Source: Rhodopseudomonas pentothenatexigens
Lineage (GTDB): Bacteria; Pseudomonadota; Alphaproteobacteria; Rhizobiales; Xanthobacteraceae
Assembly (NCBI RefSeq): GCF_900218015.1
Contig: NZ_UFQQ01000029.1
Location: 1 to 60,364 of the forward strand
Direction of reading: 5' to 3'
DNA length: 60,364 bases
Below, one piece after another: positions 78-54,276 of the stretch. The notes beneath the pieces were generated by a model, which worked only from the letters and a program-made list of their open reading frames with translations, was not told the origin of the DNA and searched no databases. The position numbers and the translations under genes are program-made. Position 1 is the first letter of the stretch. Every line of letters begins with the position of its first letter.

Positions 78-265
78 CGAAGCCTCCCTGATGGGTGGAT
101 TCGATCACCGAATTATTGAACTTGCACAGCAATGATGCCCGGGGCCCGACCTTGACAGTGGCGGGCTGCTTCGCGATGACGCCGATCGATTTCGTTCGAT
201 GTCCCGAAGTTTCGGAGCCGCGGCATCCCCAATCAGGCGACCTTGTTGTCCTCCCAGGATTTCCG

Positions 266-2215
266 ATGAGACCGGCCTATCGCAGCGATATCGATGGCCT
301 GCGTGCGATCGCAGTGCTGCTGGTGGTTGGGTTCCACGCCTTCCCGACTGCGGTTCGCGGCGGCTTCATCGGCGTCGACGTTTTCTTCGTGATCTCGGGA
401 TTTCTGATCACCTCGATCGTCTGCCAGGCGGTCGATCGCGGCGACTTCAGCTTCGCCACATTCTACGCCCGCCGCATCAACCGCATTTTTCCGGCCCTGC
501 TGCTGGTGCTGGCGGCCTGCGCGATCGGCGGCTGGTTCCTGCTGTTTCCGACCGATTATCGCGATGCCGGCAAGGCGATCGGATTCGGCGCCGCGTTTCT
601 CGCCAACATCGCGCTGCTGCACGATTCCGGCTACTTCGACACCGCCTCCGAGCTGAACCCTTTGCTGCATCTGTGGTCGCTCGGCGTCGAGGAGCAGTTC
701 TATCTGCTGTGGCCGCCGGTGATCATCCTGGCATGGCGCTGGAAGAACGGCGCCGTCGTGGCGGCGGTGGCGATCCTGGTCGCCTCGTTCGCAACCAATC
801 TGCTGCTGACGCCGGCGCATCCATCCGCCGCGTTCTATCTGCCGGTGACGCGGTTCTGGGAGCTGATGACCGGCTGTCTGCTGGCGATCGTTGCGGCAAA
901 GCAGACCGCTCCGTTGAGCGCCGTGTTCGCGCAGCACGCCGCGATCCTGCGCAACATCGGTGCGATCGCCGGCCTCGGGCTGATCGCAACCGGCGCCGCG
1001 CTGATCGATCGCAGCCGTGCTTTTCCGGGCTGGTGGGCGGTGCTGCCCGTGCTCGGCGCGGCGATGCTGATCGCGACCGGTCCGGGCACCTGGATGGCGC
1101 GGCGTGTGCTCGGCAACCGCGCGATGGTCTATGTGGGGCTGATCAGCTACCCGCTGTATCTGTGGCACTGGCCGGTGCTGGCGGCGGTGCGCATCGTCCG
1201 GCTCGGCGAGGAGCCGCCGCCGCTGATGAAGCTGATCGCGGTGCTGGTGGCATTTGGACTGGCCGATCTGACCTATCGGTTCGTCGAACCGAAGATCCGC
1301 TATCGACCGACACGCGCCAAGACCGCCGCCGTGTTCGTGGCGGTTGCCGTGGTCGGCCTGATCGGCGCCGGCATTTTCGTCGCCGACGGCGTGCCGTCGC
1401 GATTCAGCGCCGGCGTACAGATCGTCACCCGCGATCATCAGGCCGAGGCGATGCCGGCGTTTCGGCGGGGAAGTTGCTTCATCGATTCCGGGTCGCGTTT
1501 CGCCGGCGTGTGCGACGATGCGGCGAGCGCCGGCCAGCCGCGGATCGCGCTGTGGGGCGATTCGCACGCGGCGCAGCTCTATCCCGGTCTGCACGCCGTG
1601 CAGCAGAGCGAAGGCGGCTTCAGCCTGTCGCAATACACCACCGCCGCATGCCCGCCGATCTTCGGCTATGTCAGCGTCCAGACGCCGGGCTGCACGGCCG
1701 CCAACGACAGCGCCCGCGAACGCTTGAAGGCATCGAAACCCGACACGATCATCCTGGTCGCGCGGCAATGGCGCGATTACGACGGCCCCGACCGCGACCC
1801 GGCGGCGATCGACGCGATGATCAAGGCGACGCTCGCGGAACTGCGCCAGATCGGCATCCGGCGCATCGTCGTGGTCGGCAAGTTTCCGAGTTGGCATACG
1901 CCGCCGCGGCGGATTCTCGCGCAGGCCTATCGGGCAGAGGCCGCGGGCCTGGTCACCTTGGCCGAGATCCCGACGCGTGATCGTGCGCCGCGGCTGGACC
2001 GCTCGGAAGCGGAGGCCAACGAGCGGCTGCGGGCATTTTTCACCGCGCAGGGGGCGGAGTTCATCTCGCCGACGCCGGTCTACTGCAATCAGCAGGGCTG
2101 CTTGCTCGCGGTGCCGGGCAGCGGCACGCCGGTGACGTTCGACGGCAGCCACCTCACCGTCGCCTCGTCGGAATTCTTCGTCAGGCAGGTGGCGCGGGAT
2201 CTGCTGGGGCGCTGA
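266..2215 (+). CDS. OafA/YrhL-type membrane acyltransferase with C-terminal SGNH domain
   Basis: Predicted inner-membrane O-acyltransferase of 649 residues. The N-terminal half is an acyltransferase-3 domain with about ten hydrophobic segments; it opens with the family's YRSDIDGLRAIAV signature and contains the LHLWSLGVEEQFY motif. The C-terminal third (from about residue 415) is a periplasmic SGNH domain with GDSH near residue 430 and a late DGSH motif that supplies the other catalytic residues. Proteins of this build O-acetylate O-antigen, peptidoglycan or other surface polysaccharides; the substrate here is unknown. The ATG at 266 is preferred over in-frame upstream starts because the family signature begins immediately after it. 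A separate MBOAT/AlgJ-like O-acetylation pair lies 7 kb downstream. Confidence 0.88.
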   Translation: MRPAYRSDIDGLRAIAVLLVVGFHAFPTAVRGGFIGVDVFFVISGFLITSIVCQAVDRGDFSFATFYARRINRIFPALLLVLAACAIGGWFLLFPTDYRDAGKAIGFGAAFLANIALLHDSGYFDTASELNPLLHLWSLGVEEQFYLLWPPVIILAWRWKNGAVVAAVAILVASFATNLLLTPAHPSAAFYLPVTRFWELMTGCLLAIVAAKQTAPLSAVFAQHAAILRNIGAIAGLGLIATGAALIDRSRAFPGWWAVLPVLGAAMLIATGPGTWMARRVLGNRAMVYVGLISYPLYLWHWPVLAAVRIVRLGEEPPPLMKLIAVLVAFGLADLTYRFVEPKIRYRPTRAKTAAVFVAVAVVGLIGAGIFVADGVPSRFSAGVQIVTRDHQAEAMPAFRRGSCFIDSGSRFAGVCDDAASAGQPRIALWGDSHAAQLYPGLHAVQQSEGGFSLSQYTTAACPPIFGYVSVQTPGCTAANDSARERLKASKPDTIILVARQWRDYDGPDRDPAAIDAMIKATLAELRQIGIRRIVVVGKFPSWHTPPRRILAQAYRAEAAGLVTLAEIPTRDRAPRLDRSEAEANERLRAFFTAQGAEFISPTPVYCNQQGCLLAVPGSGTPVTFDGSHLTVASSEFFVRQVARDLLGR

Positions 2216-2218
2216 GGG

Positions 2219-2818
2219 TCAGCGCGGCAGGATCGCGGAGCAGGCGCGGCCGGCGACGTCGGCGGCGGACGGATCGCGCGTCACCAGCGCCATCACGATC
2301 GCGCCGTCGATGACAAGGCCGAGCGTATGGGCGACCTGCGCCGGCTCGGCAATGCCGGCTTCGGCGCACAAGACGGTGAGACGGTCGAGCACGATGGTCT
2401 TGTGGGCGATCGCCAGATTGCGCATCCGGTCGTCGGCCTTGTCGGATTCGCCGACCGCGTTGATGAACGGACAACCGTAGAAGTCGCCGCGGCTGAACCA
2501 GTCCTTCAGCGCCGGGCCGATCCGATCGAGGCGGTCGCGCGCGGTGCCGCCCGGACCGTCGATCGACTCCAGAAACCAGCTCCGCCAGCTTTCGCCCTCG
2601 CGTTCCAGCACGGCTTCGACCAGGCCGTCTTTGGAGCCGAACAGTTTGTACAGCGTGGTCTTGGCGGTGCCGGCGTGGGCGATGATGGCATCGACACCGA
2701 CCGAATTGATGCCGTAGCGGCAGAACAGATTCTTGGCGCTGTCGATCAGACGCTCGCGCGGCGAGATCCGCGGCGCGAGGGCGGGAGGTTCGACTGACAG
2801 GGGTACGGCATCGGCCAT
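2219..2818 (-). CDS. TetR/AcrR-family transcriptional regulator
   Basis: DNA-binding repressor-type protein of 199 residues. The N-terminal helix-turn-helix is clear: SPRERLIDSAKNLF, then a recognition region with TAKTTLYKLFGSK. The remaining C-terminal part is a divergent ligand-binding and dimerisation domain. The ATG at 2818 is chosen; GTG codons at 2821 and 2827 are alternatives. It is transcribed away from the osmC-like gene across a 270-base spacer holding two related palindromes, one near each start. It therefore probably represses itself and the downstream OsmC/ACAD/rhodanese/ABC cluster. The inducer is unknown. Confidence 0.88.
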   Translation of the reverse strand: MADAVPLSVEPPALAPRISPRERLIDSAKNLFCRYGINSVGVDAIIAHAGTAKTTLYKLFGSKDGLVEAVLEREGESWRSWFLESIDGPGGTARDRLDRIGPALKDWFSRGDFYGCPFINAVGESDKADDRMRNLAIAHKTIVLDRLTVLCAEAGIAEPAQVAHTLGLVIDGAIVMALVTRDPSAADVAGRACSAILPR

Positions 2819-2860
2819 CACCCGCACTTACCGCCGTCGGCGGCAAACTTCAATCCGGGG

Positions 2861-2878
2861 AAACCGAATGGTCTGTTT
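2861..2878. promoter_or_regulatory. Putative TetR operator near the regulator's own start
   Basis: Imperfect inverted repeat with halves AAACCGAAT and GGTCTGTTT, about 45 bases upstream of the TetR-family start. The right half shares GGTCTGT with the better palindrome at 3033-3048 in front of the osmC-like gene. Finding one copy near each divergent start is the usual arrangement for an autoregulated TetR system. Binding is inferred. Confidence 0.5.
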
Positions 2879-3032
2879 ACATCCGGCGCATTGCCCCGCT
2901 CGCGGGCAGCGGCGGATGCAAGCTGACTGCAAAAGCGGCGAGCCGAGATATTAGGCAGCACGCCTGAGCGCGACTCGACACTGATTCTGCTCGCCTTTTC
3001 TCCCAAGACGACTCTGGCACGCTTCCTGCTAA

Positions 3033-3048
3033 TACAGAACGGTCTGTA
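3033..3048. promoter_or_regulatory. Putative TetR operator upstream of the osmC-like gene
   Basis: Near-perfect 16-base palindrome TACAGAACGGTCTGTA (seven of eight positions symmetrical), 43 bases upstream of the osmC-like ATG, where it would overlap a promoter. It shares the GGTCTGT half-site with the copy at 2861-2878. Together they suggest that the TetR-family protein controls both arms. Confidence 0.6.
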
Positions 3049-3090
3049 GCCAACAGCGTTGCCGACCGAATGGCAGCCAGAGGAGATCCC

Positions 3091-3663
3091 ATGACAAAAG
3101 CCGCCACCGCCGTGACCGCCTGCCTGACCCCCGACAGCCCGACCGCTCTGACCGGATGCCTTGCGCCGATCGACAAGGCCGGCCTCGACGACCTGATCGC
3201 CAAGGGCAAGGCCGACCCGACGGTGATCAAGACGCTGAAGTGCAAGACCGTCGCCGAAGGCCGCTTCCGCCACCTCAACTTCATCCGCACGCTGCCGCCC
3301 TACATCGTCGACGAGCCGCCGGGCCTGCTCGGCGACGACACCGCCCCGAACCCGTCCGAAGCCTCGCTCGCCGCGCTCGGCTCCTGCCTCGCCGTCGGCA
3401 TCCACGCCAACGCGGTGGCGCGCGGCATCACCGTCTACAAGCTCGAAATCGAGCTCGAAGGCGACCTCAACATCACCGGCGTGTGGGGCACCGGCGACCT
3501 GTCGGAGAAACCGGTCGGCTTCACCGACGTGCGCGCCAAGGTGAGCTTCGAAGCCGATCGGCCGCGTGAAGAGCTGGAAGCGCTGGTCGCGCATGCGCGG
3601 CTGTGGTCACCGGTGGCCAACACCTTCTCCCGCCCGGTCAATCTCGACGTCGCGATGGCCTGA
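3091..3663 (+). CDS. OsmC-family protein
   Basis: 190-residue member of the OsmC/Ohr superfamily, cytoplasmic thiol-dependent enzymes many of which reduce organic hydroperoxides. The first catalytic cysteine lies in the ALGSCLA motif (C99). The second cysteine of classical Ohr/OsmC is not present: the corresponding segment reads LWSPVANTF, with Ser in the expected place. It may therefore not be a standard two-cysteine peroxidase. The ATG at 3091 has a strong AGAGGAGAT ribosome-binding site. It is the first gene of a run that continues with an acyl-CoA-dehydrogenase-like gene, a rhodanese and an ABC transporter, behind a TetR-like operator. Confidence 0.85.
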   Translation: MTKAATAVTACLTPDSPTALTGCLAPIDKAGLDDLIAKGKADPTVIKTLKCKTVAEGRFRHLNFIRTLPPYIVDEPPGLLGDDTAPNPSEASLAALGSCLAVGIHANAVARGITVYKLEIELEGDLNITGVWGTGDLSEKPVGFTDVRAKVSFEADRPREELEALVAHARLWSPVANTFSRPVNLDVAMA

Positions 3664-3698
3664 CCGACCAGCCCCCCGAGAAACGGACCAGAACAACG

Positions 3699-4829
3699 AT
3701 GTTGGATGTCCAGTCAGTGAGCAAAGGCGACGGCACGATGCTTCCCGGCGCCGAAGTCGTCGAGGCGGTCCGTGCGCTGGCAGCGCGCGAACTGCCGCCG
3801 CTGGTCAATACGATCGACGTCGACGGCTACTATCCGGAAGCTCAGATGCGGGCCTTCGGGCGCCTCGGCGCCTATGCGCACCATCTGCCGGGCATGAGCC
3901 CGAATGTCGATCTGATGACCGCGATCAACACGATGGCGGCGGCCGGCGAGCACTGCCTGTCGACGTCGTTCTGCATGTGGTGCCAGGACGCGCTGGGTTG
4001 GTACATCTATGCGTCCGACAATCAGCATCTGCGGACCAGCGTCGGCCCGCAGATTGCCACCGGCGCGGCGCTCGGCGGCACCGCGCTGTCGAACCCGATG
4101 AAGTCGCTGTTCGGAATCGAGCCGATGCGGCTGAAGGGCCGCCGCGGCGACGGCGGCTACGTCGTCAAAGGCCTGTTGCCCTACGTCTCCAACCTCGGCG
4201 CCGATCATTACTTCGGCGCGATCTTCGAGGTCGAAGACGGCGGCAGCACCCGCAACGTGATGGCGGTGATTCCCTGCAACGCCGAAGGCGTGAGCCTCGC
4301 CGACAATGCGAAGTTCACGGCGCTCGACGGCACCCGCACCTTCGCGGTGCAGATGCGCGACGTGGTCGTGCCCGACGCCTGGGTGCTGGCCGATCCGGTC
4401 GATCCGTTCATCAAACGGATTCGCGCCGGCTTCATCCTGCTGCAGGCCGGCATGGCGTTCGGCCTGATCCGCGACTGCCTGCGGCTGATTCAGCAGACCA
4501 AGGGACCGCTCGGCCACGTCAACAAATATCTCGACGTGCAGCCCGAGCCGATCGCCGAACAACTCGAGGCGATGGAAGTCGAGGTCGCCCGCCTCGCCGC
4601 CACACCGTTCGAGGACGACCTCGGCTATTGGCGCGCGGTGATCGAGGCGCGGCTCGCCGCCGGCGATGCCTCGGTCGCGGCAGCCCACGCGGCGATGCTG
4701 CATTGTGGCGCCCGCGGCTACGTGGCCGGCGCCGCCGCGCAGCGCCGGCTGCGCGAGGCTTACTTCGTCGCCATCGTCACCCCGGCCACCAAACAGCTGC
4801 GCAAGATGCTCGCGGACATGGCGCACTAG
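3699..4829 (+). CDS. Acyl-CoA dehydrogenase-like flavoprotein
   Basis: 376-residue protein with the overall arrangement of the acyl-CoA dehydrogenase superfamily: helical N-terminal part, central beta region (about residues 120-230) and C-terminal helical part. That fold also includes flavin-dependent monooxygenases such as the DszC/SfnB desulfurisation enzymes. No catalytic glutamate of a bona fide dehydrogenase can be assigned by eye. It follows the osmC-like gene by 35 bases and precedes a rhodanese and a nitrate/sulfonate-type transporter, so an oxygenase or oxidase acting on an imported sulfur compound is a reasonable inference. An in-frame ATG at 3738 is an alternative start. Confidence 0.75.
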   Translation: MLDVQSVSKGDGTMLPGAEVVEAVRALAARELPPLVNTIDVDGYYPEAQMRAFGRLGAYAHHLPGMSPNVDLMTAINTMAAAGEHCLSTSFCMWCQDALGWYIYASDNQHLRTSVGPQIATGAALGGTALSNPMKSLFGIEPMRLKGRRGDGGYVVKGLLPYVSNLGADHYFGAIFEVEDGGSTRNVMAVIPCNAEGVSLADNAKFTALDGTRTFAVQMRDVVVPDAWVLADPVDPFIKRIRAGFILLQAGMAFGLIRDCLRLIQQTKGPLGHVNKYLDVQPEPIAEQLEAMEVEVARLAATPFEDDLGYWRAVIEARLAAGDASVAAAHAAMLHCGARGYVAGAAAQRRLREAYFVAIVTPATKQLRKMLADMAH

Positions 4830-4958
4830 CCCGCGAGACGCCATCGCGCGGCCCGTACCAGGCGCGGGCTGCACCTTCAACGCTCGGCTCCAGGGAACCG
4901 CCCTGGAGAACCCTCAGACAACGACGTCTTGACCCAACAACGAGCACTGGAGCGACTG

Positions 4959-5840
4959 ATGACTGACAAGGTTCTTGTATCACCCGCCGAACTCTCCGAC
5001 ATGATGACTGCTGGCGGCACGGTGGTGATCGACACCCGCGATCCGGCCACCTACGCGGCCGGACACATTCCCGGCGCCGTCAACATCCACGACATCTTCA
5101 CCTATCTCGCCACCTCGACGCCCGACGGCGTCGCCGAGATGCGCGACAAATTCGCGGCGGTCTTCGGCGCCGCCGGCTTGTCGGGCGAAGAGACTGCGGT
5201 GATCACCGAGCAGTCGATGAACACAGGTTTCGGCCAGTCGTGCCGCGGCTACGTGCTGCTGAAATATCTCGGCTACCCGAAGGTGATGATCCTGCATGGC
5301 GGCTACGCCGCCTGGACCGCCGCCAGCCTGCCGATCACCACCGACGTGCCGATGCCCGTACCGAAGACCTTCAAGGTCGATCCGGCCGCCGCATCGATCC
5401 TGGTCGATCTCGAAGGCATGAAGGCGGCGGTCGGCGACTCCGGCAAGGTCAAGCTCGACACCCGCGACGTCGACGAATGGGTCGGCGAAAGCTCATCGCC
5501 CTACGGCAAGGACTTCTGCCCGCGCAAAGGCCGCATCCCCGGCGCGGTGTGGATCGAGTGGTACCGGATGATGAAGCCGTCGCCGGCCGGGCCGATGTTC
5601 AAGTCGCCGAGCGAAATCCTCGCCGAATGCGCAACGGTCGGCATCACCCCGGACACGCCTGTCGTTCTGTACTGCTTCAAAGGCGCCCGCGCCTCCAACA
5701 CGCTGGTGGCGCTGAAGGAAGCCGGCATCAAGGACGTCAGCCTGTACTTCGGCTCCTGGAACGAGTGGTCGCGCGATCCGTCGCTGCCGATCGAGCAAGG
5801 CCCGCCCTATGCGGCGCAGCCGCTGATGGCGGCGGAGTAA
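4959..5840 (+). CDS. Tandem-rhodanese sulfurtransferase
   Basis: 293 residues with two rhodanese domains (about 5-125 and 145-290), as in thiosulfate or 3-mercaptopyruvate sulfurtransferases. The C-terminal domain has an active-site loop CFKGAR (C239, pattern CxxGxR) and the GSWNEW motif near its end. The N-terminal domain keeps the fold (VVIDTRDPATYAAGHIPGA and LHGGYAAW) but its loop reads TEQSMNTG without the cysteine, so it is a non-catalytic partner as in most tandem rhodaneses. The ATG at 4959 follows GGAGCGACTG. The enzyme would move sulfane sulfur in the cytoplasm; its neighbours suggest use of a sulfur-containing nutrient. Confidence 0.88.
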   Translation: MTDKVLVSPAELSDMMTAGGTVVIDTRDPATYAAGHIPGAVNIHDIFTYLATSTPDGVAEMRDKFAAVFGAAGLSGEETAVITEQSMNTGFGQSCRGYVLLKYLGYPKVMILHGGYAAWTAASLPITTDVPMPVPKTFKVDPAAASILVDLEGMKAAVGDSGKVKLDTRDVDEWVGESSSPYGKDFCPRKGRIPGAVWIEWYRMMKPSPAGPMFKSPSEILAECATVGITPDTPVVLYCFKGARASNTLVALKEAGIKDVSLYFGSWNEWSRDPSLPIEQGPPYAAQPLMAAE

Positions 5841-5921
5841 GCGAGCCCCGGCACCGGCTGCATCCAGGTGGCCGGTGCCGTCCCTTCCCGATCGGCAAGA
5901 TACGAAGGAGCAGCGGTCCGC

Positions 5922-6793
5922 ATGCCGGCATATCGCTCGAAGAAATCATGGCCGGGCGCGCATATCGCGATCCAGGGCGTCAATCATCGCTACCGCCGCT
6001 CCAGCAGCAACGTCCTGAGCAGTATCGATCTCGAGATCAAGCCGTGCGAGCAGCTCGCGCTGGTCGGACGCTCCGGCTGCGGCAAGTCGACCTTGCTGCA
6101 CATCATCTCCGGTCTGACCAAACCCACCACGGGCGAGATCCGGATCGACGGCGCGCTGGTCGAAAGCCCCTCGCCGCACTGGATCATGATGTTCCAGCAG
6201 CCCAATTTGTATCCGTGGATGAGCGTGGCGCAGAACGTCGGGCTCGGCATGAAATTCGCCGGGCGTCCGAAGCAAGAGATCGCCGCGCGCGTCGATGAAT
6301 TGCTGCATCTGGTCGAGCTCGACGGCTATGGGGGCCGCAACGCGCAGGAATTGTCGGGCGGCCAACAGCAGCGCGTCGCGCTGGCGCGTTCCCTCGCCGT
6401 CGACCCCGAAGTGCTGCTGCTCGACGAGCCGTTCTCCGCGCTCGACGCCGTGACCCGCCGCGCGCTGCAGCGCGACGTCCGCCGCATCGCCGAAGACATG
6501 AAGATCACGCTGGTGATCGTCACCCACGACATCCGGAAGCTGTGGCAATGGCCGATCGTGCCGTGGTGATGGCGTCCGATCCCGGACGGATCGCCGAAGC
6601 GATCCCGATCGAGATCGACCGCCGCGATCCTGATCCCGAGCGCCGCGCCGCCAGCGTCGCGGCCGCGCAGGCGAAGCTGCAGTCTGCATTCGAGCGCGCG
6701 ACAGGCCGCGCGCTGCACGGCGGCACAAGTCCAGCCATTTCCGAAGCCCCTCGCCCCGAACCGCTCAAGATCGTCGCCGCCGGCGCCCGCTAA
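5922..6793 (+). pseudogene. ABC transporter ATPase (SsuB/TauB/NrtD type), interrupted by a one-base deletion
   Basis: Nucleotide-binding subunit of an importer for nitrate/sulfonate/taurine-like substrates. Walker A (GRSGCGKST, residues 49-57), Q-loop (FQQPNLYPW), signature LSGGQQQRVALARS, Walker B (LLLDEPFSALD) and the H-loop (VTHDI) are all present. After THDIR the frame shifts and stops at 6569, giving 215 residues. Adding one G after 6536 restores THDIREAVAMADRAVVMASD, the family's normal continuation, and the frame then runs to 6793 for 290 residues. The gap is exactly one base. It is either a sequencing error or a real mutation. The truncated product still holds every core ATPase motif, so partial function is conceivable. 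AAGGAG lies 12 bases before the ATG. Confidence 0.87.
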
Positions 6794-6805
6794 CAGGAGA
6801 TCACC

Positions 6806-8044
6806 ATGTGCATCAATTGTGGAGATGACGTCGTCCATCCGGAAGACGATCGTTTCAGGATCACGCGCCGGCAGACGCTCGACATGTTGGCGGCTGGCGG
6901 CCTTGCTGCGCTCGGCACCATGCTGGGCGGCTTCGGCCAATCAGCGCGTGCGGCCGACGATGAGGTGGTGCGGATAGGCTATCTGCCGATCACCGACGCG
7001 ACAGCGCTGCTGGTGGCGCACGGCTTGGGTTACTTCAAGGACGAAGGGCTGGAAGCCGAGCGCCCGACCCTGATCCGCGGCTGGTCGCCGCTGGTCGAGA
7101 GTTTTGCGGCCGGCAAATTCAACCTCGTGCATCTGCTCAAGCCGATCCCGGTGTGGATGCGCTACAACAACAACTTCCCGGTCAAGATCATGGCCTGGGC
7201 GCATACCAACGGGTCCGGGGTCGTGGTCGGCAAGGAGACCGGAATCGAATCGTTTAAGGACCTCGGCGGCAAGCAGGTCGCGGTGCCGTTCTGGTACTCG
7301 ATGCACAACATCGTGCTGCAATACGCGCTGCGCAAATCCGGCATCAAGCCGGTGATCAAGGGACAGGGCGAGACGCTCGCGGCCGACGAATGCAATCTGC
7401 AGGTGATGGCGCCGCCCGACATGCCGCCGGCGCTCGCGGCGAAGAAGATCGACGCCTACATCGTCGCCGAGCCGTTCAACGCGCTCGGCGAAATCAAGGC
7501 CGGCGGCCGGATGCTGCGCTTCACCGGTGACATCTGGAAGAACCATCCCTGCTGCGTGCTGTGCATGAACGAGGAGGTGACGAAGAAGAAGCCGGAATGG
7601 ACCCAGAAAGTGATGAACGCGCTGGTCCGCGCCGAGATCTACGCCGCTGCCAACAAGAAGGAAGTCGCCAAGCTGCTGTCGAAGGACGGCGAGGGCTACC
7701 TGCCGCTGCCGGCGCCGGTGGTCGAGCGGGCGATGACCTATTACGACGACAAGGCCTATGGCGAGACCCACGCCATCACCCACCCCGAGTGGAAGCTCGG
7801 CCGGATCGACTTCCAGCCCTGGCCGTATCCGTCGGCCACCAAGCTGATCGTCGAGTCGATGAACGACACCGTGGTGTCGGGCGACACCACCTTCCTGAAG
7901 AAGCTCGATCCGGATTTCGTCGCCAAGGATCTGGTCGACTACAACTTCGTCAAGCAGGCGATGACGAAGTATCCGGACTGGAAGAAGGCGCCGAGCGTCG
8001 ATCCAGCCGATCCGTTCGCCCGAACCGAGGTATTGGCGCTGTGA
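6806..8044 (+). CDS. ABC transporter substrate-binding protein with Tat-type leader (NMT1/SsuA/NrtA family)
   Basis: 412-residue periplasmic binding protein. The leader contains a twin-arginine motif TRRQTL (R21-R22) followed by a hydrophobic stretch and an Ala-rich cleavage region (SARA-A), so export of a folded protein is likely. The mature part shows the NMT1/SsuA fold, with RIGYLPITDATALLVAHG at its start and an ALAAKKIDAYIVAEPF segment later. Before the Tat motif sits an unusual MCINCGDDVVH segment with a CxxC pair and a histidine. The ribosome-binding site AGGAGATCACC is good. It lies between the broken ATPase gene and the permease, with a 4-base overlap to the latter. The substrate is likely a small anionic sulfur or nitrogen compound, by family only. 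Confidence 0.87.
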   Translation: MCINCGDDVVHPEDDRFRITRRQTLDMLAAGGLAALGTMLGGFGQSARAADDEVVRIGYLPITDATALLVAHGLGYFKDEGLEAERPTLIRGWSPLVESFAAGKFNLVHLLKPIPVWMRYNNNFPVKIMAWAHTNGSGVVVGKETGIESFKDLGGKQVAVPFWYSMHNIVLQYALRKSGIKPVIKGQGETLAADECNLQVMAPPDMPPALAAKKIDAYIVAEPFNALGEIKAGGRMLRFTGDIWKNHPCCVLCMNEEVTKKKPEWTQKVMNALVRAEIYAAANKKEVAKLLSKDGEGYLPLPAPVVERAMTYYDDKAYGETHAITHPEWKLGRIDFQPWPYPSATKLIVESMNDTVVSGDTTFLKKLDPDFVAKDLVDYNFVKQAMTKYPDWKKAPSVDPADPFARTEVLAL

Positions 8045-8874
8045 GTCTCGACCTGACCCTCGACGACACCGCCGCGATTGCGCCGCGGAAAGCGGGCGGG
8101 CAACTGGCAGGTCCCGCACGCAGCTTCGGCTATGTACTGCTCGGCATCGCCGCGCTGCTGGCCGTATGGTGGATTGGCGGCGCCATCATCGCCGCCAATC
8201 CGCGCACCGCCAGCTTCGCCGATTTTGCACCGCTGCCGACGTTCCAGCGGCTGTGGTCGATGCTCATCTCCGGCGAGGCGGTCAAGATGGCGCTGCCGAG
8301 TCTCGCCCGGATCGGCGGCGGGCTCGCCTGGGCGATCGTGCTCGGTGTGCCGCTCGGCATCCTGGTCGGGCGGTTCAAGGGGATGCGTCAGGCCAGTTCG
8401 GTACCGTTTCAGTTCCTGCGGATGATCTCGCCGCTCGCCTGGATGCCGATCGCCGTGATGGCGTTTTCGAGCTGGAACGGCGCGATCGTGTTCCTGATCG
8501 GCGTTGCGGCGATCTGGCCGATCCTGTTCTCTACCGCGCACGGCTTCCGGCGGATCGATCCGGCCTGGTTCAAGGTCGCGCGCAATCTCGGCGCCCGGCC
8601 CTGGCACATGTTGTTCACCATCATCATGCCGGCGATTCTGCAGGACGCGCTCGCCGGCATCCGCCTCGCCGTCGGCGTCGCCTGGATCGTGCTGGTGCCG
8701 GCCGAATTCCTCGGTGTCACCTCCGGACTCGGCTACGCCATCAACGACGCCCGCGACACGCTCGAATACGACCGGCTCGCCGCCACCGTGGTGATCATCG
8801 GCCTGATCGGCTTCACGCTGGACTTCCTCTGCGAACGCGCCGTCAAGCGCGCGAGCTGGGCGCGGGAGGAGTAG
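8041..8874 (+). CDS. ABC transporter permease (SsuC/TauC type)
   Basis: 277-residue inner-membrane permease with about six hydrophobic segments and the cytoplasmic EAA-type loop around ARNLGARPWHMLFTIIMPA, which docks the ATPase. It completes the importer with the two preceding genes. The start is a GTG overlapping the stop of the binding-protein gene (GTGA, four shared bases), indicating translational coupling. No ORF-sized partner follows; a hairpin lies about 70 bases after the stop and the next gene is convergent. Confidence 0.87.
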   Translation: MSLDLTLDDTAAIAPRKAGGQLAGPARSFGYVLLGIAALLAVWWIGGAIIAANPRTASFADFAPLPTFQRLWSMLISGEAVKMALPSLARIGGGLAWAIVLGVPLGILVGRFKGMRQASSVPFQFLRMISPLAWMPIAVMAFSSWNGAIVFLIGVAAIWPILFSTAHGFRRIDPAWFKVARNLGARPWHMLFTIIMPAILQDALAGIRLAVGVAWIVLVPAEFLGVTSGLGYAINDARDTLEYDRLAATVVIIGLIGFTLDFLCERAVKRASWAREE

Positions 8875-9002: not shown

Positions 9003-10169
9003 TCAGGGGGCCGTGACGATCCGGTGCAGCAGCGACAGATAGGCCTGCCGCCCGATCAGGCTTTCGTTCTCTTCGAGCAGCATCAGATCGACGTCGCGCA
9101 CTTGACGCAGCTCGGCCTCGGAGAGCTGGTTCTGTCGGACTCCGCCGCGGGAGCGGCCGAGCTTGAGATAAAAGTACTGCCCGAGCCGGGTCAGACACGC
9201 CTGTTCGGTCAGCACCTCGCTGACCGGGTCGATGAAGCTGGTACCGACCAGCGCCGCGTCGATCCGCGTCGCCTCGCGGCCGGCGCAGGGCGGATGGCTG
9301 TAGGTCAGCTTCGGCGTCGGATAGTCGATCGGCGCCACCAACAGATTGGCGAGCTCCGCCAGATCGCGGTCTCGCCCTTCGGCCGGCCGGCTCACTGTCG
9401 CGCTGAAGCTGAACGGCGGCAACAATTCGCGTCCCGCCTGGGCGTTGATCGCATCGACGATCTGCCGGCTGCCGCGCGCCATCGCCAGATCGTTCCAATG
9501 GATGCCGCTGCGCGGGAACGGCGCGGTGGCGTCGCTCCGCATCGCATGGGTCGCAGTCGCCAGATCGAGCACGTCGATGCCGGCGGCGCGCAGCCGTGCC
9601 ACATAGGCCGGGACGAGCTCTGCGCGCGCTTGCGGACTGCTCGGACAGGCGATCAGATGCGTGAACTTGTCCGGCATGTCGGCGACTTTTGACGGCGTCA
9701 CGATATAGAGGAACAGCTTGCCGCGATCGCGGTAGTAAGCCTGGATGTCGCGCAGCAGCGGGATCGCGGCATCCGCCATCGTGTCGGCCTGTCCGATCGC
9801 GCGCGAGCAGTATTCTTCGAGATAACTGCGCTGCACGAGTTCGCCGTCGCGCCCGACCAGAACGCCGGGAGCGGTGATTTCGCCGAACAGCGAATAGGCG
9901 ATCTGGTTGTTCAGCCTGATCAGCGTCCGTCGCAGCGGCATCGCGTCCGCGATCCGCAGCGCCGCGGCCTTCTGCAACGCGCCGTCGACAAAGCCGCGCA
10001 GCGAGAGATCGAACGGCACCTCCTGGGTGACGCCGACCAGCCCCGGTCCGATCCGAACGGCGCGCGACGGCACGGCGAGATTCCACAGCGTCAGCGCCGG
10101 CATCGCCACGAAGGCCGCTGCCGCCAGCCGGCGCAGCCATCGTCCCGATGATGTGGTGAGAGTCTCCAT
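9003..10169 (-). CDS. AlgJ/AlgX-like SGNH-fold protein (polysaccharide O-acetylation)
   Basis: 388 residues: an N-terminal membrane anchor or signal (about residues 12-32), then a periplasmic AlgJ/AlgX-like domain. These proteins work with an MBOAT partner to transfer acetyl groups to exported polysaccharides, and the MBOAT gene ends two bases upstream, so the pair forms an operon. The expected catalytic motifs are recognisable but altered: the DxHW motif reads SGIHW (residues 221-225, Asp replaced) and the GDSF motif reads VGTSF (Asp replaced, Ser311 kept). His224 and Ser311 could still act. The polysaccharide is unknown. Confidence 0.75.
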   Translation of the reverse strand: METLTTSSGRWLRRLAAAAFVAMPALTLWNLAVPSRAVRIGPGLVGVTQEVPFDLSLRGFVDGALQKAAALRIADAMPLRRTLIRLNNQIAYSLFGEITAPGVLVGRDGELVQRSYLEEYCSRAIGQADTMADAAIPLLRDIQAYYRDRGKLFLYIVTPSKVADMPDKFTHLIACPSSPQARAELVPAYVARLRAAGIDVLDLATATHAMRSDATAPFPRSGIHWNDLAMARGSRQIVDAINAQAGRELLPPFSFSATVSRPAEGRDRDLAELANLLVAPIDYPTPKLTYSHPPCAGREATRIDAALVGTSFIDPVSEVLTEQACLTRLGQYFYLKLGRSRGGVRQNQLSEAELRQVRDVDLMLLEENESLIGRQAYLSLLHRIVTAP

Positions 10170-10171
10170 GC

Positions 10172-11584
10172 TCAGAACCGGAAGTAGATGAAGGGCTGAA
10201 ACGGGATCGCCACCGCCCGGGCGATCGCGACGATGCCCAGCACGCCGAGGCCGACATGGCCGGCGAGCCGAAGTCCGGTACTGCTGCGCCAGGCCGCGCC
10301 CAGCGAGCCAAAGACCGGCAGGGCCGGGATCAGGCTCAGCGCTGCGCCGAGCGCAGCGGTCCACAGCACCGAGGCCGGCGCCGGCAGCCACGCGGTGGCT
10401 TGGCCGAAGCCGGCGAGCGCGGCGAAGAAGCCGCCGAGGTGCGCCGCATCCGGCGACCGGAAGATCACCCAGCCGAGCATCACGATCAGCAGCGTCGCGA
10501 CCGTGGCGATCACCGCACCGCCGCGTTGCAGCCAACGCTCCAGGAACACCCGGTCGAGCGTGAGGAACAGACCGTTGTAGGCGCCCCACAGCACGAAGGT
10601 CCAACTCGCGCCGTGCCACAGCCCCGACAGCAAAAAGCAGATCCAGAGATTGCGATAGGTGACGAGCGCGCTGCAGCGGTTGCCGCCGAGCGGGATGTAC
10701 AGATAGTCGCGAATCCAGGTGGTGAGCGAAATGTGCCAGCGCCGCCAGAACTCGGTGATCGAGCGGGAGACGTACGGCATGTTGAAATTCTCGCGCAGCG
10801 AGAAGCCGAGCATCCGGGCGATGCCGATCGCCATGTCGGAATAGCCGGAGAAGTCGAAATAGATCTGCAGCGTGAAGCAGACCGTGCCGAGCCATGCAGT
10901 CCCCATCGACAGGGTCGCCGGATCGGCGCCGAACACCTGATCGGCATAATGGCCGAGCGGATCGGCGATCAGCAGCTTCTTGAAGATGCCTTGGGCAAAC
11001 CGAGAAAGGCCCGCACCGCAATCGGCCCAGCAGAACCCGCGCGGCACCGCGATCTGACGATCGATCTCGTGATATTTCAGGATCGGGCCCGCCAGCAGCT
11101 TCGGAAAGAAGAACACGAACAGGCAGTAGTCGGAAAACCGCCGCGCCGGCTGCGACACGCCGCGATAGCTGTCGACCAGATAAGTGATCTTCTCGAAGGT
11201 GACGAAAGAGACGCCGATCGGCAACGCGATATGCCACACGGGCAGCGCGCCGAGCTTGCCGGCGACCAGCAACACGTTCAGGCTCTCCAGCGCAAAGCTG
11301 GTGTACTTGTAGACGATCAGGATCGCGAGGTTCTGCACCACGCCGAGCGCCAGCAGCGCACGCCGGGTCGATGCGTTCGAACTGCGGACGATCCCGCGGG
11401 CGAGCAGATGGTCGATCAGCGCCGACGCGACCACCACCGGCACGAACAGCGGCTCGCCCCAGAGATAGAACAGGCCGCTGCCGATCAGCAGGATCCAGCG
11501 CCTCGTCCGCGCATCGCGGACCGAGAAGTACAGGACATACAGAAACGGGAAGAAAGTCAGAAACAGAGGTTCGTAGAACAGCAT
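10172..11584 (-). CDS. MBOAT-family O-acyltransferase (AlgI-like)
   Basis: 470-residue polytopic membrane protein of the membrane-bound O-acyltransferase family. It starts MLFYEPLFLTFFPFLYV and contains the invariant histidine in GLWHGASW (H324), together with SITEFWRRWHISL. AlgI-type MBOATs pass acyl groups across the inner membrane to an AlgJ/AlgX-type partner, here the adjacent downstream gene. The start at 11584 is chosen because the hydrophobic segment begins there; the longer in-frame extension would run into the tRNA gene. No alginate biosynthesis genes are present, so the target is another surface polymer. Confidence 0.87.
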   Translation of the reverse strand: MLFYEPLFLTFFPFLYVLYFSVRDARTRRWILLIGSGLFYLWGEPLFVPVVVASALIDHLLARGIVRSSNASTRRALLALGVVQNLAILIVYKYTSFALESLNVLLVAGKLGALPVWHIALPIGVSFVTFEKITYLVDSYRGVSQPARRFSDYCLFVFFFPKLLAGPILKYHEIDRQIAVPRGFCWADCGAGLSRFAQGIFKKLLIADPLGHYADQVFGADPATLSMGTAWLGTVCFTLQIYFDFSGYSDMAIGIARMLGFSLRENFNMPYVSRSITEFWRRWHISLTTWIRDYLYIPLGGNRCSALVTYRNLWICFLLSGLWHGASWTFVLWGAYNGLFLTLDRVFLERWLQRGGAVIATVATLLIVMLGWVIFRSPDAAHLGGFFAALAGFGQATAWLPAPASVLWTAALGAALSLIPALPVFGSLGAAWRSSTGLRLAGHVGLGVLGIVAIARAVAIPFQPFIYFRF

Positions 11585-11758
11585 AAGCGGATCGGTTCCC
11601 GTTCCCTGCTTTGCGATCGACGAACCTATTTCAGATTCCGGGGGCTGCGCCCAGCAGCCGCACTGAAGCGGCGAGACAGTCGCCCAACGGGCATCACCGA
11701 TCGGCTCGATGGGTCTGGAAAGGCAGGCGCCGGGCCGAGGATCTTGCCGGCGGATCTC

Positions 11759-11833
11759 TGGAGCGGGCGAAGGGATTCGAACCCTCGACCCCAACCTTGG
11801 CAAGGTTGTGCTCTACCCCTGAGCTACACCCGC
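11759..11833 (-). tRNA. tRNA-Gly(GCC)
   Basis: Cloverleaf read on the minus strand. The acceptor stem GCGGGTG pairs with CGCCCGC, the discriminator is T and the CCA is encoded. The anticodon stem is CAACC/GGTTG with loop TTGCCAA giving anticodon GCC, and the T-arm contains GGTTCGAATCC. It stands alone upstream of the MBOAT gene. No direct repeat of its 3' end marking an integrated element was seen. Confidence 0.97.
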
Positions 11834-52974: not shown

Positions 52975-54276
52975 CTACAAAATGAATCGGCTCAGATCGG
53001 TGTTCTTGGCCAGATCGCCGACATTGGTCTTCACGTAGTCCGCGTCGACACGGAAAGTCTCGCCGTGGCGGTCGGGGGCGACGAAGGAGATCTCGTCGAG
53101 GACGCGCTCCATCACGGTCTGTAGCCGGCGTGCCCCGATGTTCTCGACCGTCGAGTTCACCGCCACCGCGACGTCGGCGAGCGCGTCGATCGCATCGTCC
53201 GAGAATTCCAGCGTCACGCCCTCGGTCTTCATCAGCGCCACATATTGCTTGATCAGCGACGCTTCCGGCTCGGTGAGGATGCGGCGCATGTCGTCGCGGC
53301 TCAGCGCGTTGAGTTCGACGCGGATCGGCAGCCGGCCCTGCAATTCTGGCAGCAGGTCCGACGGCTTGGCGATGTGGAACGCGCCCGAGGCGATGAACAG
53401 GATGTGCTCGGTCTTCACCGCGCCGTGCTTGGTGGTCACCGTGGTGCCTTCGATCAGCGGCAGCAGGTCGCGCTGCACGCCTTCGCGCGAGACTTCGCCG
53501 CCGCTGCGGCCGTCGCGCACGCAGATCTTGTCGATCTCATCGAGAAACACGATGCCGTTGTTCTCGACGACGGCGATCGCCTCCTGCACCAGCTGATCGT
53601 TGTCGAGCAGCTTGTCGGCTTCCTCGTTGACCAGGATCTCGTGCGAGTCGGCGACCGTGAGTCGCCGCGTCTTGGTGCGGCCGCCCATCTTGCCGAAGAT
53701 GTCGCCGAGCGAGACCGCGCCGATCTGGGCCCCCGGCATGCCGGGAATCTCGAACATCGGGGTGCCGGAGCCGGCCTGGGTTTCGATCTCGATTTCCTTG
53801 TCGTTGAGCTCGCCGGCGCGCAGCTTCTTGCGGAACGAATCCCGCGTCGCCGGGCCCGAACCGGGGCCGACCAGCGCGTCGAGCACGCGCTCTTCGGCGG
53901 CGATCTGGGCGCGCGCCTGGACGTCCTTGCGCTTCTTCTCGCGCACCTGCGCGATCCCGACTTCGACCAGGTCGCGGATGATCTGTTCGACGTCGCGGCC
54001 GACATAGCCGACCTCGGTGAACTTGGTGGCCTCGACCTTGAGGAACGGCGCGCCGGCGAGCTTGGCCAGCCGCCGCGCGATCTCGGTCTTGCCGACGCCG
54101 GTCGGGCCGATCATCAGGATGTTCTTCGGCAGCACTTCTTCGCGCAGGGCTCCTTCGAGCTGCAGCCGCCGCCAGCGGTTGCGCAGCGCGATCGCGACGG
54201 CGCGCTTGGCGTCGGCCTGGCCGACGATGAACCGGTCGAGTTCGGAGACGATTTCGCGGGGAGAAAAGTCGGTCAT
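52975..54276 (-). CDS. hslU: ATP-dependent protease ATPase subunit HslU
   Basis: 433-residue AAA+ unfoldase of the HslUV protease. Walker A GPTGVGKT (57-64), Walker [10 protein letters not shown], a sensor region, and the C-terminal DLSRFIL tail that docks into HslV. The intermediate I-domain (about 105-240) is present. hslV is upstream on the same strand, 115 bases away, with a REP-like palindrome in between, so co-transcription is likely despite the spacing. Confidence 0.96.

Follow-up and report, generated by a model that had tools for sequence, protein, structure and literature searches.

The use of thiocyanate as a nitrogen source by heterotrophic bacteria has long been known, and a pathway through cyanate was proposed decades ago (Youatt, 1954; Stratford, 1994; cited in PMC5328954 and PMC6172326). 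In the accessible portions of the reports consulted, thiocyanate hydrolase and TcDH are the only enzymes named for thiocyanate breakdown, and no gene is named for heterotrophic growth. Thiocyanate hydrolase (scnABC) belongs to the carbonyl sulfide pathway, and in Thiobacillus thioparus a NitT/TauT importer and a cyanase are found beside it (Berben and others, PMC5328954). TcDH, of the cyanate pathway of Thioalkalivibrio, is a periplasmic copper enzyme with a beta-propeller fold and a Tat signal that converts thiocyanate to cyanate and zero-valent sulfur (PMC6504805). Here we describe a block of seven genes in a 60,364-nucleotide stretch of Rhodopseudomonas pentothenatexigens DNA (contig NZ_UFQQ01000029.1, hereafter the window; contig 52 of 69 in a 5.38 Mb draft genome), which we consider likely to be a TetR-repressed and probably sigma-54-dependent operon for the use of thiocyanate as a nitrogen (and sulfur) source by way of cyanate and cyanase. 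On balance we lean towards its representing a third bacterial thiocyanate route, in which a cytoplasmic, flavin-dependent enzyme of the acyl-CoA dehydrogenase (ACAD) fold and a one-cysteine OsmC protein would desulfurize imported thiocyanate to cyanate.

Reading rightward, the locus consists of a divergent tetR gene (minus strand), osmC, the ACAD-fold gene, a tandem rhodanese gene and, at 5868-8874, the importer genes, which encode an ATP-binding cassette (ABC) ATPase, a substrate-binding protein (SBP) and a permease. The importer would take in SCN-, and in the cytoplasm the ACAD-fold flavoprotein and OsmC would cleave its C-S bond to give cyanate (OCN-). Sulfur released as a persulfide or as sulfane sulfur would pass to OsmC and/or the rhodanese, towards thiosulfate. 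Cyanase, whose gene adjoins the block in many relatives but in this genome lies elsewhere, would convert cyanate to ammonia and CO2. The flavin chemistry is most likely oxygenation by a reduced flavin, with direct dehydrogenation as a possible mechanism; we infer cyanate as the product, the roles of OsmC and rhodanese, and the nitrogen control. The proposed conversion is that of TcDH, but the candidate enzyme is a flavoprotein that is presumably cytoplasmic, and no copper beta-propeller domain was found among the seven proteins of the block, to which the search was confined. No description of the combination of OsmC, ACAD, rhodanese and importer was found in the literature titles and abstract openings listed, subscription papers lying outside that search.

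Genuine thiocyanate hydrolase (TIGR03887, above cut-off) was detected in nine of 369 genomes from another class of the phylum, and in seven of the nine loci a relative of the window importer (ATPase, SBP at 496-523 bits and permease) adjoins it; in the other two a short contig ends close to the hydrolase gene. Cyanase is sometimes close by as well (three of the seven importer-bearing loci). The window differs from these loci in carrying the ACAD-fold flavoprotein, OsmC and rhodanese instead of the hydrolase, with cyanate rather than carbonyl sulfide as the expected product, and Pfam and NCBIfam reveal no nitrile-hydratase-type subunit among its seven proteins. Window-type importers were absent from all seven loci with weaker nitrile-hydratase matches that served as a control (seven of nine sub-cut-off places fetched, two of which are contigs just 3.7 and 6.2 kb long). 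When 56 SBPs are compared in a tree, those linked to thiocyanate hydrolase form the sister clade (support 92) of those linked to OsmC and ACAD, with 56-61% identity to the window SBP, which places the latter in the importer family found beside the hydrolase; the SBPs of more distant ACADs come next and the CynA type is far away. The CynABD-CynS cyanate operon likewise combines a NitT-type importer with cyanase, but the window SBP is 24-30% identical to CynA-type proteins and belongs to a separate clade. Since one importer type stands beside two unrelated enzyme sets, both are suggested to act on the same imported compound, and thiocyanate is the ligand to which this arrangement points. The SBP also contains an HPCC motif (residues 247-250), possibly a signature of (thio)cyanate binding: H247, C249 and C250 are shared by all 23 CynA-type SBPs and by at least 29 of the 30 SBPs that are of the window type or linked to thiocyanate hydrolase or an ACAD, with EK replacing CC in three other NitT-type proteins. 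Cysteines also precede the twin-arginine signal (window 6806-6825), Cys5 being present in 11 of 13 window-type SBP rows and CxC in 49 of 49 CynA-type rows (e.g., locus L030; L and G numbers are our designations for loci and genomes).

The sequence-only reading of this stretch had assigned the importer to the SsuABC/TauABC type, an assignment that fails at the NCBIfam cut-offs (TIGR01728, 109 against 163.5; TIGR01729, 34 against 304; TauC, 93.5 against 342; SsuC, 77 against 347), and the nearest relatives outside the OsmC-ACAD cluster type flank thiocyanate hydrolase. The SaoXPA transporter of the SAO organometal system (PMC13188914) was rejected on its weak likeness (SaoX, 60 against 300; SaoP, 141 against 295).

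The core of the block is widely conserved. Among 83 ACAD loci, comprising the best 80 of 187 ACAD relatives from species-level genomes and three plasmid loci (distant members are under-sampled and contig ends cut several), OsmC is encoded in 81, rhodanese in 77 and TetR in 77, in agreement with the earlier view of a co-conserved, TetR-controlled unit. The nearest named relative by ACAD, among those best 80, is Rhodopseudomonas palustris XCP (98% identity). A lack of such conservation, or an ACAD-like protein falling among ordinary dehydrogenases, had been named beforehand as grounds for abandoning the proposal; the neighborhood is conserved, and the protein lies outside the ordinary dehydrogenases. 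A window-type transporter is found beside the core in 12 of the 83 loci, chiefly in Rhodobacterales and a few others, and a distant, CynA-like transporter in 50, chiefly in Bradyrhizobium; one locus (L032) has both.

Cyanase is a recurrent partner of the core that the sequence-only reading overlooked, as it did the sigma-54-like promoter and the broken ATPase frame described below. It is present in 49 of the 83 loci, all 49 being among the 66 whose sequence extends 6 kb or more downstream from the ACAD gene, and its identity is supported by the Pfam domains Cyanate_lyase and CYNS_N in all four proteins examined and by an above-cut-off match to NCBIfam cynS in the one tested. One locus (L099) is a compact cluster of importer, OsmC, ACAD, rhodanese and cyanase, and nine Bradyrhizobium loci (L043, L045, L050, L051, and L056-L060) contain OsmC, ACAD, rhodanese and cyanase with no importer detected. 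In an order-level sample the ACAD occurs in 15 of 297 genomes (E <= 1e-80), 14 of which encode cyanase, compared with 57 of the 282 others (Fisher p = 8e-9, relatedness ignored; p = 4e-9 when three of the 71 cyanase genomes with weak or partial matches are dropped), and the two genes lie within 10 kb of each other in 10 of the 15. Within the genus, 11 of 16 genomes carry the ACAD, and cyanase is found in all 11 but in only two of the five without it (p = 0.018). A phylum-level sample yielded the ACAD in 16 of 398 genomes (E <= 1e-60), four of them new, with cyanase about 1.3 kb away in one, about 10 kb away in one and none in two. The sole cyanase match in the genome of the window is in an operon on another contig (L109; G000 contig 41), where it accompanies a CynA-type importer, a divergent sigma-54 activator and a -24/-12-like element of its own.

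The candidate enzyme is an ACAD by fold, both in its predicted structure (pLDDT 91.3) and in the structure matches, the best of which in the PDB are acyl-CoA dehydrogenases. It departs from these enzymes in that IVTPAT replaces IYEGT, with TP (25 proteins) or SP (one) in place of EG in 26 of 26 aligned family members, such that the catalytic Glu, which we take to lie at this position in acyl-CoA dehydrogenases, is missing. In the phylogenetic tree the family forms a clade separate from the 27 other PF02771 proteins of this genome, the clade of close and distant members having a support of 67. The ACAD fold is used for sulfur chemistry by the flavin monooxygenases DszC and SfnB, and the sequence-only reading had likened the protein to them; its distinctness from the other ACAD-type proteins of the genome is confirmed, but membership in the DszC/SfnB group is ruled out by the separate clade, the TP motif and a DszC model score of 14.4 bits against a cut-off of 850. 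Four SfnB-like proteins, all under the SfnB cut-off, form their own clade and have HNP where the family has TP (HNP/HDP is presumably the motif of the group D flavin monooxygenases DszC and SfnB); the placement of the family beside them has a weak support of 59 and is not claimed here. DszC and SfnB structures were not among the 50 matches listed in each of two structure searches, which excludes nothing. A ferredoxin-reductase-like protein adjoins the ACAD in 10 of the 83 loci, and in Marinobacter, Acetobacter and Moraxella a rubredoxin-reductase fusion follows it; these neighbors suggest a supply of electrons to the ACAD in part of the loci.

The OsmC protein had been described as a one-cysteine form, and alignment upholds a single catalytic-type cysteine, Cys99, which like Cys51 is conserved in 82 of 82 sequences (Cys23 in 81 of 82). 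What we take to be the usual position of the second catalytic cysteine is occupied by Ser173, invariant in 23 rows, so that the pair of redox cysteines of OsmC/Ohr is incomplete. A role as a carrier of persulfide or sulfenyl groups is more probable than that of a two-cysteine peroxidase, the mechanism described for OsmC/Ohr peroxidases (PMC5157978). The rhodanese has a sulfurtransferase-type active loop, CFKGARA, in the second of its PF00581 domains, and the active Cys239 is conserved in 78 of 78 sequences. It is probably an accessory protein that passes sulfane sulfur on, and its proposed part as a sulfur acceptor is still plausible. Heterotrophic use of thiocyanate ending in tetrathionate is cited in PMC6172326, and this end product would fit a thiosulfate-forming step; catabolism of 4,4-dithiodibutyrate likewise involves an OsmC-like protein and a rhodanese (PMC5157978).

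A relative of OsmC was also found on a plasmid of Rhizobium sp. AB2/73 (L169, 3240-7558), inside a three-subunit locus resembling Co-type nitrile hydratase or thiocyanate hydrolase and accompanied by CbtAB; it is 66-72% identical to the OsmC proteins of the Marinobacter, Acetobacter and Caballeronia clusters. The gamma-type subunit barely reaches the nitrile-hydratase cut-off and is below that for thiocyanate hydrolase, a related Agrobacterium locus showed no OsmC, and the link, known from one strain, is weak. OsmC matches in Microvirga and Azospirillum have no ACAD among their annotated neighbors.

The region upstream of osmC contains a -24/-12 element, TGGCACGCTTCCTGCT, that resembles what we take to be the sigma-54 consensus and ends two bases before the palindromic TetR box TACAGAACGGTCTGTA. 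Both are conserved islands in all 10 upstream regions that were aligned, the promoter varying slightly (eight of the regions are distinct; 19 loci were tried besides the window, of which nine were extracted). With up to three mismatches allowed, and apart from the same palindrome read on the reverse strand, the box has one further site in the window, at 53108-53123 (0.03 expected). A second box, ACCGAATGGTCTGT, is probably autoregulatory for tetR, judging from its position and recurrence. More widely, sigma-54-like elements are present in 12 of 76 regions upstream of the first gene after tetR by a loose pattern and in 10 by a strict one, as against 1.3% and 0.5% of random stretches; the loci that have them are those of Rhodopseudomonas, of the Hyphomicrobium type and of a few others, and outside the genus they are rare. 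Both patterns miss the XCP locus (L025), in which the aligned element differs by one base. PAS/sigma-54 regulators are encoded in 21 of the 83 ACAD loci and, together with the sigma-54-like promoter, they fit control by nitrogen, in which TetR is likely to act as a substrate-responsive gate. The earlier proposal of a sulfur-compound system stands as regards a small sulfur-containing anion as the likely substrate, and gives way to the series thiocyanate, cyanate and ammonia, serving nitrogen supply; given cyanase and the sigma-54-like promoter, a combination once thought to match no nameable pathway can be named, as a hypothesis, after that series.

Several observations weigh against the thiocyanate proposal or its parts. 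In Bradyrhizobium the core stands with a CynA-type importer or with none detected, not with the window type, and within about 7-8 kb neither type is seen in four Rhodopseudomonas loci (L013-L016). Cyanase is not within reach in 17 of the 66 loci with sufficient downstream sequence, no cyanase was found in one genome that has importer and ACAD (G253) or in genomes G403 and G612, and cyanase alone is a poor marker (PMC6504805). Several clusters are without rhodanese (it is unannotated in those of Methylocystis, Marinobacter and Acetobacter), which is therefore not essential to every version. The sigma-54-like element is found in just 12 of the 76 upstream regions and in none of those titled Bradyrhizobium, and structure comparison places the ACAD nearest true dehydrogenases, not oxygenases. 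The presence of cyanase near thiocyanate hydrolase in three of seven loci also means that the importer ligand could be cyanate. Under such an arrangement the importer would carry cyanate and cyanase destroy it, with OsmC, ACAD and rhodanese repairing thiols damaged by cyanate or reactive sulfur; this would account for the many Bradyrhizobium loci in which the core is accompanied by cyanase and an importer of the CynA type, and for the H247, C249 and C250 common to both SBP types and missing from three other NitT-type proteins. We consider this very unlikely, because window-type importers accompany ACAD or thiocyanate hydrolase also at places with no cyanase annotated nearby and at others where none was found (four of the seven importer-bearing hydrolase loci), and because the two importer types coexist in one cluster (L032) and in this genome.

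A system that imports and oxidizes an organosulfur anion (a thio compound or one resembling a sulfonate) as a sulfur source unrelated to thiocyanate would agree with the SsuA-family score of the SBP (109 bits), the fold shared with DszC/SfnB and the nearby cysK in Synechococcus (see below). It would leave cyanase without a reason, the sigma-54-like promoter points to nitrogen, the importer proteins are under the SsuA, TauA, SsuC and TauC cut-offs and their closest relatives flank thiocyanate hydrolase, and this explanation is likewise given very little weight. Assimilation or detoxification of cyanide, with the ACAD-fold protein as a cyanide monooxygenase making cyanate and the rhodanese trapping cyanide as thiocyanate, would suit both the rhodanese and the cyanase partner, and cyanide monooxygenase followed by cyanase is a listed route (PMC5778177). 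HCN, however, needs no anion importer, the importer type flanks thiocyanate hydrolase, and no nitrilase was seen among the few recurrent neighbor families scanned with Pfam (most recurrent families fall outside that scan), which makes the cyanide explanation unlikely.

More distant associations of importer and ACAD were sought on plasmids, where eight of eight places chosen solely for the similarity of their SBP (46-70% identity; of the places listed with at least 46% identity a part was opened, and three ACAD-chosen places were excluded) carry an ACAD-family gene near the importer. The gene was identified by search in Synechococcus, Bartonella, Variovorax, Roseomonas, Marinobacter, Thermomicrobium and Burkholderia, and by annotation only in Agrobacterium sp. 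T29. In Variovorax, Roseomonas and Agrobacterium sp. T29 a protein of the carboxymuconolactone-decarboxylase family takes the place of OsmC, whereas Synechococcus and Thermomicrobium have a DUF4242 protein instead; the Bartonella annotation has neither substitute. On the large plasmid of Synechococcus elongatus (L157, 7426-11885) the DUF4242, ACAD and importer genes, annotated at family level only, lie near cysK. An S. elongatus plasmid with many sulfur-related genes, taken to be the same one, has been reported (PMC8049743), and that report does not contain the terms acyl-CoA dehydrogenase and ABC transporter.

If the proposed route is correct, it would be a third one and would explain heterotrophic growth on thiocyanate as a nitrogen source. 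Rhizobia, roseobacters and purple non-sulfur bacteria would commonly have it, and more distant versions made up of importer and ACAD would be found in betaproteobacteria, cyanobacteria and Thermomicrobium. It would also provide a genetic marker of the use of thiocyanate in soil, the rhizosphere and the sea, and the ACAD fold would gain a new reaction. With a candidate importer, a candidate enzyme and a promoter in one conserved operon, the thiocyanate question becomes testable.

Features of the locus, with positions in the window
Feature	Position	Strand	Evidence
TetR-family repressor, divergent from the operon	2219..2827	-	Pfam TetR_N 47.8 bits, TetR_C_13 29.6 bits; relative in 77/83 ACAD loci
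Second, weaker box ACCGAATGGTCTGT, about 40 bases upstream of tetR	2863..2876		In 8/10 upstream regions (6 distinct), in one case with a single-base change
Sigma-54-type -24/-12 promoter TGGCACGCTTCCTGCT	3015..3030	+	One match in window, 0.05 expected; aligned upstream regions
Palindromic TetR operator TACAGAACGGTCTGTA, at expected transcription start	3033..3048		Sole exact match in window; aligned upstream regions
OsmC-family protein	3091..3663	+	Pfam OsmC PF02566, 68 bits
ACAD-fold flavoprotein, candidate thiocyanate-desulfurizing enzyme	3699..4829	+	Acyl-CoA_dh_N PF02771, 32 bits; model, motif, tree
Tandem-domain rhodanese	4959..5840	+	PF00581, two stretches, 124 bits
Importer ABC ATPase, frame broken near 3' end	5868..6569	+	ABC_tran, 118 bits
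TAT-type SBP, NMT1_2 family, HPCC motif; candidate thiocyanate-binding protein	6806..8044	+	PF13379, 154 bits
Importer permease	8041..8874	+	BPD_transp_1 PF00528, 77 bits; relative adjoins thiocyanate hydrolase in 7/9 loci

The elements recognized from the sequence alone, and their coordinates, are borne out by Pfam, apart from starts corrected to 3091 (likely) for OsmC, 3699 for ACAD and 4959 for rhodanese; the permease is encoded at 8041-8874. The divergent TetR, OsmC, ACAD-fold flavoprotein and tandem rhodanese are as first described, and the importer set is of the one-permease NitT/TauT type. A stop at 6567-6569 ends the ATPase frame early, while the C-terminal homology runs on in a second frame to about 6790; an intact relative used in tblastn aligned in two frames, 5868-6533 and 6533-6790. 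Five copies from the same genus are uninterrupted (L110-L114, the last of them matching the XCP locus L025), and the break may be either a mutation or an assembly error. On either side of the block, at 95-2215 (plus strand) and 9003-11803 (minus strand), are genes judged by reading only to encode membrane O-acyltransferase-like and acetyltransferase-like proteins, and a tRNA-Gly gene is located at 11759-11833.

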